A stretch of DNA of 64,000 bases. Origin: an uncultured Bacteroidia bacterium. GTDB taxonomy: Bacteria; Bacteroidota; Bacteroidia; Bacteroidales; UBA932. The notes under the pieces were generated by a model. It was given only the letters and a program-made list of their open reading frames with translations. It was not told the origin of the DNA and searched no databases. The position numbers and the translations under genes were made by a program. The stretch is taken from contig CADASN010000010.1 in NCBI GenBank assembly GCA_902790635.1, positions 18,919 to 82,918 on the forward strand, written 5' to 3'. This document shows positions 25,099 through 27,615 of the stretch, piece by piece. The first letter of the stretch is position 1, and each line of letters begins with the position of its first letter.

Positions 25099-25722
25099 TT
25101 ATCGTTGCAGGTTTTCCAAAAAGATTTCCATCAGTTCCGGATCCTTAATCCCGGGCGCCGTCTCGAAGCGGCTGTTGAGGTCGAATCCGGCCAGGTAGGG
25201 ATAGATGAAGTCGTGGAGCGTGGCCACGGTGTCCATGCCGAGGCCGCCGCTGAGCAGGAAGTGGGTCTTCTCTTCATAGTCGTCCATGATGGACCAGTCG
25301 AAGCGCTGTCCGCTGCCTCCGTGGCCGGGCGTCTTGGTGTCGAAGAGGAAGAGATCGCAGGCGCCTTCGTAGCCGGCGACGGTGTTGCGCACGTCTTCGT
25401 CGGCGATGCCGAAGGCCTTGATGACGCGCAGGCCGTCCCGTTCGCGCAGGCGGCTGCAGAACTCCGGGCTCTCGCTGCCGTGGAGCTGGACATAGTCGAA
25501 GCGGAAGCTGTCGTGGCGGCGCAGGATCTCCTCGCGGGTCGCGTCCACGAACACCCCCACCCGGCCGGCTTTCCGGGGCAGATAGGAAGGAACTTCGCGC
25601 ACATAGCGCGGGGATCCGGGGTAGAAGATGAATCCCATCAGATCCACCCCGAGGGCTTCGATCTCGCGGATGTTTTCTCCTTCGGTCATGCCGCACACCT
25701 TGACGAGTTTGTTGTTGATCAT
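25099..25722 (-). CDS. trpF: Phosphoribosylanthranilate isomerase
   Basis: Amadori rearrangement of phosphoribosylanthranilate to CdRP. The 207-aa barrel starts MINNKLVKVCGMT with the catalytic cysteine at residue 11. It has DLMGFIFYPGSPRYV, VGVFVD, VQLHGSES, FLFDTKTPGHGGSGQRFDW (with the catalytic Asp) and a LLSGGLGMD phosphate site. Its ATG overlaps the trpC stop by 4 bp. No insertion or oddity is seen in this gene, unlike its neighbour. Confidence 0.97.
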   Translation of the reverse strand: MINNKLVKVCGMTEGENIREIEALGVDLMGFIFYPGSPRYVREVPSYLPRKAGRVGVFVDATREEILRRHDSFRFDYVQLHGSESPEFCSRLRERDGLRVIKAFGIADEDVRNTVAGYEGACDLFLFDTKTPGHGGSGQRFDWSIMDDYEEKTHFLLSGGLGMDTVATLHDFIYPYLAGFDLNSRFETAPGIKDPELMEIFLENLQR

Positions 25723-26615
25723 AGGGCCTGGATGAATGTGGCCAGGGCTGCGCCCGGGTTGGGTTGTCTCATGAAGGTCTCTCCCATCAGGAAGCCACGG
25801 AAGCCCGCTTCCCGCAGCGAGCGCACCGTCGCCGGATCGCTGATCCCGCTCTCGGAGATAAAGATCGGCCCCGTTGCTTCTCTCGCGGGCGGACCGAAAT
25901 TATTTTTCGGACAAGTTTGCCGAAAAACCAATTTCGGCTCCGCCCTCCACGACGCCATCGCACGCAACGGGGTCGTCGGAGCAGAGCGACGCAGGGGGTC
26001 CGGGGGGAGCGCCCCAGGGTCATTAAATGTTCCGTCTGTCCGCTGGGTCAGCAGCGGGGCGAGGTCGAAGGAGGTCTGCACGTCGGTGACGAAAGAGCCG
26101 AGGTGGCGGTTGTTCACCCCGACGACGTCCACCTCCGGCGTGATGTAGTCCAGCTCCTCCTCGCTGTGGATCTCCAGCAGCACCTCGAGCCCGAGGCGGT
26201 GGGCTTCGGCGAGCAGGGCGGCACAGTCGGCGCGGCCCAGGCACGCGGCGATGAGCAGGACGGCGTCGGCACCCGCCTGCCGCGCCTCGACGAGCTGGAC
26301 GGGATCGATGATGAAATCCTTTCGCAGGATGGGGATGTCCACGAGGGGACGCACCCGGCGGATGAACTCGAGGCTGCCGCCGAAATACGTTTCGTCCGTG
26401 AGGACGCTGAGCGCTGCCGCGCCCGCCGCCGCATAGGCCGGCACGACCTCTTCCGGGCGGGCGTCCTCGTGGATCCAGCCTTTCGAGGGCGACTTCCGCT
26501 TGAACTCCGCGATGATGCCGGTCGGAGAGGACAGCAGGGCCTGCTTCAGCGAATGCCTCTTGTCGAAGCGCAGTTCCTCCCGTTTGGTTTCCAGGATTCT
26601 GTCGAGAATGTCCAT
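25719..26615 (-). CDS. trpC: Indole-3-glycerol phosphate synthase with a 61-residue in-frame insertion
   Basis: Closes the indole ring in tryptophan synthesis. The family core is intact: IAEFKRKSPSKGW near residue 35, ALSVLTDETYFGGS, PILRKDFIIDPVQLVEARQAGADAVLLIA, LEVLLEIHSEEEL, VVGVNNRHL, and FISESGISD with FLMGETFM. Between DLAPLL and IFISESG, where homologues have only a few residues, 61 residues are encoded by 25866-26048, carrying a long palindrome. This region has a low-similarity, Arg/Pro-rich composition and lies in the loop before a catalytic strand. The frame is kept, so the enzyme may still work. trpC is 4 bp behind trpD and overlaps trpF. Confidence 0.95.
   Translation of the reverse strand: MDILDRILETKREELRFDKRHSLKQALLSSPTGIIAEFKRKSPSKGWIHEDARPEEVVPAYAAAGAAALSVLTDETYFGGSLEFIRRVRPLVDIPILRKDFIIDPVQLVEARQAGADAVLLIAACLGRADCAALLAEAHRLGLEVLLEIHSEEELDYITPEVDVVGVNNRHLGSFVTDVQTSFDLAPLLTQRTDGTFNDPGALPPDPLRRSAPTTPLRAMASWRAEPKLVFRQTCPKNNFGPPAREATGPIFISESGISDPATVRSLREAGFRGFLMGETFMRQPNPGAALATFIQAL
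25866..26048. mobile_element. Palindromic (MITE-like) element inserted in frame in trpC
   Basis: Nested inverted repeats: CCCCGTTGC (25869-25877) with GCAACGGGG (25964-25972); GGGCGGA with TCCGCCC; CCGAAATTATTTTTCGG (25894-25910) with CCGAAAAACCAATTTCGG (25920-25937) around ACAAGTTTG. The remaining part to 26048 is GC-rich and without a clear partner arm. Length is a multiple of three with no stop in the trpC frame. Exact ends and copy number elsewhere cannot be told from this window. Confidence 0.65.
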
Positions 26616-26619
26616 GGTG

Positions 26620-27615
26620 CTAGCTGTTGATGGTGAGGAAACGCTTGAAGGCGGAGAGGGCGCGGCCGCTCTCCAGCGACTCCCGGCACAGGGCGATCGA
26701 CTCCTCCACTGAGAGGTTGCGGTCGATGATCGAGATGCCGCAGGCGGCGTTGGCGAGGATCACGGAAGTCTGCGCCTCGGTGGCCGTGCCTTCCAGCACG
26801 GCGTCGAAGATCTGGCGGGCGTCCTCCGCAGTCGCGCCGCCGTAGATGTCTTTCGGCTCGATGTAGTTGAGTCCCAAGTCTTTGGGCGTGAAGACCTTCT
26901 CGAAGTGCGGGGTCACGAGCTTGAAGCCCGAGGTCAGGGAGATCTCGTCATAACCGTCATAGCTGGTGACGACGCCGAAGTTGTCGCCGATCTTCTGGTG
27001 GGCGCGGACATAGAGGCGCTGCTGGGCCTGGGTGGCCGTGCCGTGCAGGGAGTTTTTCGGCTGGCAGGGATTGACGAGCGGCCCCAGCAGGTTGAAGCAG
27101 GTCGGCACGCCGAGGGCGCGGCGCACGGGGCCCACGAACTTCATGCCGTAGGCGAAGAGCGGTGCGTGGAAATAGCAGAAACCCGACTCGTCCAGCGAGC
27201 GCCGCAGCAGGTCCGGGTCGGCGCTGAATTTGGCCCCGTGGGCCTCCAGGACCGTGCTGGCGCCGCTGACGGAAGTGCTGGCGCCGTTGCCGTGCTTGGT
27301 CACTTTATACCCGGCGCCGGCGATCACGAAGGCTGCACAGGTGGAGATGTTGAAGGTGTTCTTGCCATCCCCGCCCGTACCCACGATGTCCAGGGTGTTA
27401 TAGCCGTCCAGGTCGATCCGCTTTCCGGTCTCCAGGAGGCCGTCGCGGAAGCCGAGGAGTTCGTCCACGGTCACCCCGCGGGTCTGCAAGGCCATCAGCA
27501 GGGCTGCGATCTGGCAGTCGTTGTATTCCTGCCGGGTGATGCCGAGCAGGATATCGTGGGTCTGTTCGCGGGAGAGGGTCTCCCCTTCGATGAGTTGGTT
27601 CAGATACTGTTTCAT
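26620..27615 (-). CDS. trpD: Anthranilate phosphoribosyltransferase
   Basis: Transfers phosphoribose from PRPP to anthranilate. The 331-aa protein begins with a helical domain (LSREQTHDILLGI) and has the PRPP loop DIVGTGGDGKNTFNIS near residue 82, KHGNGASTS, FNLLGPLVNPCQPKNS, and the acidic DEISLTS near residue 225. It stands 13 bp after trpG and 4 bp ahead of trpC. It is an ordinary monofunctional enzyme, not fused to TrpG. Confidence 0.97.
   Translation of the reverse strand: MKQYLNQLIEGETLSREQTHDILLGITRQEYNDCQIAALLMALQTRGVTVDELLGFRDGLLETGKRIDLDGYNTLDIVGTGGDGKNTFNISTCAAFVIAGAGYKVTKHGNGASTSVSGASTVLEAHGAKFSADPDLLRRSLDESGFCYFHAPLFAYGMKFVGPVRRALGVPTCFNLLGPLVNPCQPKNSLHGTATQAQQRLYVRAHQKIGDNFGVVTSYDGYDEISLTSGFKLVTPHFEKVFTPKDLGLNYIEPKDIYGGATAEDARQIFDAVLEGTATEAQTSVILANAACGISIIDRNLSVEESIALCRESLESGRALSAFKRFLTINS

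Follow-up and report, generated by a model that had tools for sequence, protein, structure and literature searches.

Rickettsia palindromic elements (RPEs) are repeats of 105-146 bp that fall into ten families and encode a peptide. In the parts of two papers available to us, they are described both from intergenic DNA and in frame inside unrelated conserved genes (PMC2229807; PMC10969869). In one case, a guanylate kinase bearing an RPE, the protein is both translated and active (Abergel, 2006, according to the available part of PMC2229807). Frequent palindromes in conserved genes are singled out as unusual to Rickettsia in the available part of a 2024 review, which calls the same in other prokaryotes "conceivable" (PMC10969869). 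In-frame fusions of MITEs are already known in several bacteria: ERIC/RU-1, YPAL/RU-2, NEMIS and QMITE1 of Coxiella are small non-autonomous repeats whose open frames are fused to genes (PMC2229807; PMC10969869, in part). Several in-frame MITEs possess their own terminal repeats along with target duplications (PMC2229807, in part), and the MITEs of P. gingivalis are treated as non-coding in the accessible part of one paper. REP/BIME and RAYT-linked palindromes are dispersed hairpins, mostly intergenic and sometimes in genes; REPs measure 20-40 bp and carry GTAG or CGTC tags, and those with GTAG are cut by RAYTs (PMC3733652, in part). Perfect inverted repeats are also kept in functional protein genes of Nematomorpha mitochondria, where both arms encode conserved protein (PMC6649704, in part). 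Titles and abstract beginnings listed by searches of the open-access literature contained no report of in-frame palindromes in Bacteroidota.

Here we describe a palindromic repeat family, A, of which one copy (subtype A2) lies beside a second repeat, B, inside trpC of an uncultured member of the Bacteroidia. The gene is part of a window of 64,000 nucleotides, by which we mean the whole stretch of DNA that was analysed. Like RPEs, A is a palindrome with many copies, some intergenic and others in frame within conserved genes that are unrelated, and it has a preferred encoded peptide (18 of 25 in-gene copies are read in one frame). It differs from RPEs in its host, which belongs to Bacteroidota and not to Rickettsia, in its shorter unit of 86 nt, in its locus-specific covarying arms, and in the use of both orientations and four reading frames. 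A further difference is that the same protein loops here hold different repeat families in different species. Judged by these descriptions, RPEs appear to be the nearest known kind. The first-pass annotation had likened the behaviour of the element to that of RPEs, and this likeness, which is one of behaviour only, holds. Because of the other phylum, the locus-specific covarying arms and the shared hot spots, A is not filed as an RPE.

The remaining systems are further away. A differs from REPs in the length of the A2 unit, in having GGAG and not GTAG before the palindrome in most of the copies listed, and in that no Y1 transposase was found in its own genome. Unlike the terminal repeats of MITEs, the outer arms of A vary by locus and belong to the locus rather than to the element, and no target duplication was found at A sites, as judged by eye between diverged species. 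In Nematomorpha the palindrome encodes conserved protein, whereas here it is a mobile repeat in a variable loop. What is new is a gut lineage with several repeat families in frame in core enzymes.

The trpC gene and its composite insert

The features of the locus are as follows, all on the minus strand.

25099..25722, minus: trpF (PRAI); its start overlaps the trpC stop
25719..26615, minus: trpC open reading frame including the insert, 298 aa; stop codon in an ATGA overlap with the trpF start
26620..27615, minus: trpD, directly upstream of trpC
25866..26048, minus: whole in-frame insert, residues 190-250, without counterpart in the TrpC of G008
25866..25877, minus: 3' arm of A2, coding-strand sequence GCAACGGGGCCG; pairing partner of 25964-25975
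25878..25884, minus: 3' constant segment of the A2 unit, 7 nt
25885..25944, minus: palindromic core of family A, 60 nt; holds the inner inverted-repeat pair
25945..25963, minus: 5' constant segment of the A2 unit, 19 nt
25964..25975, minus: 5' arm of A2, coding-strand sequence CGACCCCGTTGC
25976..26023, minus: family B dispersed repeat, 48 nt
26024..26048, minus: start of the insert, about eight residues (TQRTDGTF), matched to neither repeat

The product of 25719-26615 is TrpC, indole-3-glycerol-phosphate synthase (PF00218, E 1.6e-66). Its gene is clustered with trpG, trpD, trpF and trpA on the same strand, together with a trpE-like ORF that was named by eye. Given the overlap of the trpC stop with the trpF start, trpF would presumably suffer if trpC were no longer translated. 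The four motifs KRKSPSKG, RKDF, NNR and SESG, which we take to be the catalytic motifs of the enzyme, are all present. In what follows G000 denotes the window's own genome and other G numbers the genomes of the genus compared with it. The nearest relative found, the TrpC of G008, is 87% identical, and only residues 190-250 are unmatched against it; G008 reads DLAPELHG-LFISESG where the window TrpC has 61 extra residues. The in-frame insert postulated in the first-pass annotation is thus present at exactly 25866-26048.

Alignment to solved IGPS sequences (1vc4) places the loop before the strand that ends in SESG. An AlphaFold2 model built on a four-row alignment reached a mean pLDDT of 42.4 and was set aside as too poor, so the loop was positioned by alignment and by the anatomy of TIM barrels, according to which this strand is presumably strand 7 and the preceding loop presumably points away from the active site. 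The rest of TrpC is under purifying selection. Outside the loop its dN/dS against G000 is 0.10-0.24 (13 species), and the 150 codons before the loop have the same length in 13 species; only these count as length evidence, because the 44 codons after the loop in this set are equal in length by construction. By eye, the 41 residues after SESG align without gaps. A match to TrpC beyond the insert itself was obtained in only 9 of 61 genus genomes. The gene may therefore be missing from most of the genus, which would then need tryptophan.

The insert is composite: a B repeat lies beside an arm-flanked A2 unit, and the two belong to separate families. The first-pass annotation had seen one palindromic element. 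Its palindrome survives as the A2 unit, and so do both of the inverted repeats it had listed, the outer one as arms of 12 nt each that are 92% complementary (25866-25877/25964-25975) and the inner one within the core; the rest of the segment is not part of that element. The A2 unit proper consists of 19 nt, the 60-nt core and 7 nt. Folded as RNA, 25860-26050 gave z -4.2 against dinucleotide shuffles, and 25860-25980 folded as DNA gave z -5.1, with none of 200 shuffles as good in either case. With the insert DNA as query, its own genome yielded 21 matches at E<=0.001, namely the query itself, nine further A-type matches, of which one is partial, and 11 further B-type matches. The possibility that the element is single-copy, which the first-pass annotation had raised against itself, falls away. 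A BLASTN search of the insert region against the window returned, besides itself, only two matches, at E 0.53.

The hairpin of the A core is conserved. Across 15 copies (13 distinct) it has 21 pairs with 96% of cells paired, three pairs are changed on both sides in a compensatory manner, and the covariation score is 0.083 compared with 0.037 in shuffles, of which 0 of 500 were as high. Searches of 12 loci with the Rfam 15 covariance models gave four sub-threshold hits and no intron match, and at Rfam gathering scores the window contains only two tRNAs. Two subtypes with a common core can be told apart among 99 catalogued A copies: 58 are A2, 35 are A1 and six are neither. Outside the unit, the arms vary in sequence by locus, yet each pair is complementary. 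The arms pair best at the edges of the unit in 45 of 58 A2 copies, compared with 15% of random pairings, and in 31 of 35 A1 copies, compared with 51%; the weaker A1 excess is due to the A1 arm being partly fixed sequence. At the TrpC site the arms have changed together between species (GTTGC/GCAAC, GCTGC/GCAGC, GCTTC/GAAGC). Among seven TrpC genes, arm pairing averages 8.3 within and 6.4 between species, and the within-species sum was reached by 8 of 5040 permutations, although some single between-species pairs score as high as or above within-species ones. Such co-changing arms imply either that pairing is selected or that one arm is copied from the other. A search for pre-existing hairpins as targets in 18 loci of G215 (73.7 kb) found a single short hairpin with arms of this type (ATTCGCCGG) and one core-deleted element between such arms.

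Distribution of the repeats and their copies in genes

A covariance model of the A core (Infernal) found matches in 43 of 300 genus genomes at E<=1e-3, in 39 at E<=1e-5 and in 19 below 1e-9; 257 of the 300 had no match at E<=1e-3. The model has 13 matches in G000. In an order-wide search of 295 genomes from 183 genera, G000 alone had a match at E<=1e-5; in both searches Infernal was run with its stricter filters. When named genome records were scanned for the A core pattern, at least 116 stretches matched. Record titles were listed for 80 of the 116; with one exception these are MAGs of Bacteroidales or Bacteroidia, many of them from samples that the titles give as ruminant, which supports the Bacteroidota origin assumed in the first-pass annotation. 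The exception is a Clostridia-labelled contig carrying the A core (CAMJHX010000184.1, L278), probably through a binning error. Viral contigs gave no match to the A core pattern. The catalogue of 99 A copies in 19 genomes was taken from the core-model matches listed. G124:C50, G124:C97 and G274:C41 (E about 1e-11 to 1e-12) were among those left out of it, and weaker matches such as G074:C35, G124:C2 and G165:C80, which may be other hairpins, also stand outside it. Copies in G215 and G096 have a loop variant of the core, mostly of 59 nt.

Open frames of genes contain 25 of the 99 catalogued copies, 22 of them with family matches or homologues on both sides. The genes are unrelated and conserved: TrpC in five genomes (G000, G165, G192, G220 and G124), AtpG with three copies in two genomes, PrmC and DapF with three copies each, ABC-F and MBOAT with two each, and RmlD, HemW, IspG, ManA, MetH, a GSCFA protein and a porin with one each. 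In RmlD, HemW and GSCFA a family match stands both before and after the A element, and in AtpG and IspG an end-to-end family match spans it. Less certain are the two MBOAT copies, which have no Pfam match N-terminal of the element (G113 has homology on one side only; G074, at a contig end, has no Pfam match), and the porin of G274, in which the element is N-terminal of the domain and homology is on one side only. These 25 copies were chosen by eye from the longest open ORFs over each copy, so gene-breaking copies would be missed; G266:C1 and G192:C3 were Pfam-scanned and left out of the count. None of 17 A copies in G215 and none of six in G096 lies in a verified gene. Family B also occurs in frame, inside the Ham1/RdgB protein of G008 (L067; DDRGAFPPDPLRRDAPI), where the Ham1-family match falls in two stretches. 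Annotators should be warned that such segments in proteins of rumen MAGs are not domains.

Several single loci add to this picture. The MetH of G074 (L070) contains, besides A2, an in-frame SCHPERSEGSP, the product of another dispersed repeat. The AtpG of G299 (L105) has two A elements at two different sites of one protein. The final codons of one gene, in G015:C117 (L031), and its stop seem to come from an A core close to its 3' end.

Frame choice among the 25 in-gene copies is uneven, with 18 in rev-2, four in fwd-2, two in rev-0 and one in rev-1; the insert of the window TrpC uses the second commonest frame. The rev-2 peptide resembles RADGNYFSDKFAEKPISAPPSTTPTH. When each site and frame is counted once, rev-2 accounts for 11 of 17 (with five equal frames, p 7.6e-5 for one named frame and about 4e-4 for any frame). 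Five of six frames are open in both consensus units, a number that about 1% of mononucleotide shuffles reach or exceed. In the A2 consensus, the rev-2 peptide has net charge 0 and the other four open frames give +4 to +8. The rev-2 peptide is hydrophilic and without net charge, and frame choice appears to be filtered by selection; together, 18 of 25 copies in one frame and the net charge of 0 are read as survival of the least disturbing frame.

Shared protein loops and their changing contents

The DNA of the TrpC loop was read and compared across 13 clade members. A2 is forward in G000 and G165 and reversed in G192 and G220. In G299, G074 and G113 (the last by eye only) the reversed A2 ends are present and the core is gone. 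A1 and B occur together in G124, with what by eye is an A2 end; the loop of G215 holds a short scrap of A, that of G096 another repeat (ILRSAQDDS) and that of G266 a REP-like hairpin. The loop of G081 was left unclassified. G008 has no repeat insert, and five more distant genomes have short loops. The first-pass annotation had also considered that relatives might all carry one conserved, non-palindromic loop, and what they carry is variable, down to the empty loop of G008. Presence, orientation and remnants at shared sites are species-specific.

The loops of PrmC, AtpG and DapF vary in repeat content between species as that of TrpC does. An exact piece of a catalogued repeat of at least 11 nt occurs in 30 of 49 parsed loops (10 of 13 in TrpC, 5 of 14 in PrmC, 5 of 11 in AtpG and 10 of 11 in DapF), in a raw tally from which chance matches are not subtracted and whose repeat strings were partly drawn from copies in those same loops. 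The 19 loops without such a piece include nine of PrmC, mostly short; G056, one AtpG locus and one DapF locus were left out of the tally. In the AtpG of G113 a B repeat is nested inside A2. G165 and G113, at a TrpC dS of 0.155, have opposite A2 orientations in TrpC and unrelated inserts in DapF, which indicates that turnover is quick. A third palindrome, unlike A and B, lies in frame in the PrmC loop of G192 and G299 (L340, L341), and the DapF loop of G165 and G000 (L411, L412) is filled by the repeat peptides CHPERSEGS and CHPEPVEGS.

Both loop flanks lie in one open frame at all 58 loci found by homology (TrpC 18, PrmC 15, AtpG 13, DapF 12), including loci with short or no inserts. As these loci were found by homology and not by an open frame, they are a better test of frame conservation than the 25 in-gene copies. 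Filled, inverted, decayed and empty sites in related species form a natural series on the entry of mobile DNA into proteins, and this series bears on which loops tolerate inserts and which reading frame survives.

Origin of the insert and competing explanations

Family A is multi-copy, its hairpin is conserved with compensatory changes, and it is present in open frames of unrelated conserved genes. The insert is very probably a non-autonomous mobile palindromic repeat (A2) joined to B in the TrpC loop, translated and tolerated. According to this explanation, an A2 copy and a B repeat would have lodged in the loop before strand 7 and would be translated straight through with the enzyme. The insert would be tolerated because the loop presumably faces away from the active site, and it would be close to neutral. 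A copies may have spread as mobile DNA. Comparison by eye of filled and empty sites, which come from diverged genomes because draft MAGs of different species were compared, revealed no target-site duplication, and no transposase was tied to the A element among the genomes tested. We favour a mobile, RPE-like element, and regard template switching, described below, as the boldest live alternative.

A and B might be REP-like or MITE-like units moved in trans by a REP-associated Y1 (HUH) transposase, an explanation that we find unlikely though worth weighing. The GGAG directly before the A2 palindrome in most listed copies recalls the GTAG of REPs cut by RAYTs (PMC3733652, in part). Y1-family hits at E<=1e-3 show a weak tendency in the same direction: they occur in 13 of the 14 genomes tested that have strong A copies, and in 8 of the 13 tested that lack the element. 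However, most of these hits are weak, the 8 of 13 are element-free genomes, the one miss among the 14 is G000 itself (83% complete), and the A unit exceeds the 20-40 bp that the available part of the same source gives for REPs. As a specific partner, the Y1 transposase was rejected because the two proportions discriminate too little.

It is also possible, though we hold it doubtful, that there is no dedicated transposase and that the hairpins spread, invert and shed their cores through template switching at replication forks, which would copy one flank as an inverted arm. This would account for arms that are locus-specific yet complementary, for the A2 edge pairing, for TrpC arms that pair better within than between species, for core-deleted and inverted forms at one site, and for the use of the same loops by unrelated repeat families. 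On the other hand, template switching alone leaves the spread of one sequence to many unlinked loci unexplained, some between-species arm pairs outscore within-species ones, selection for pairing could yield the same arm pattern, and the A1 arms are partly fixed with a weaker excess. In its widest form, which we put forward only tentatively and consider rather improbable, hairpins of unrelated families in this clade would enter, invert in and decay from fixed loops of essential proteins by replication, one flank being copied as the inverted arm, without an element-specific transposase. If true, protein loops would be long-term landing sites for palindromes.

Returning to the mobile repeat as the favoured explanation, we consider it improbable that the insert has acquired a function, such as that of a hairpin adjusting translation or mRNA decay in the trp operon. 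The compensatory changes that keep the hairpin and the recognisable repeat piece in 10 of 13 TrpC loops would suit such a role, but loop content differs even between the close relatives G165 and G113, orientation flips, the same elements occur in unrelated genes, and G008 does without the insert. Less probable still is removal of the hairpin in the manner of an intron, or its skipping by ribosomal bypassing, which would leave a TrpC of normal length. Known bypassing systems do act on strong hairpins in coding sequence. Skipping needs no open frame, however, and the frame is open in 58 of 58 loci at four sites despite inserts that differ in family, orientation and length; the absence of an Rfam intron match in the 12 loci argues the same way. 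An assembly or binning artefact or a decaying pseudogene can hardly be credited, for although the genomes compared are multi-contig drafts, the TrpC dN/dS is that of a gene under constraint and repeat pieces lie in frame in the same TrpC loop of 10 of 13 separately assembled species.
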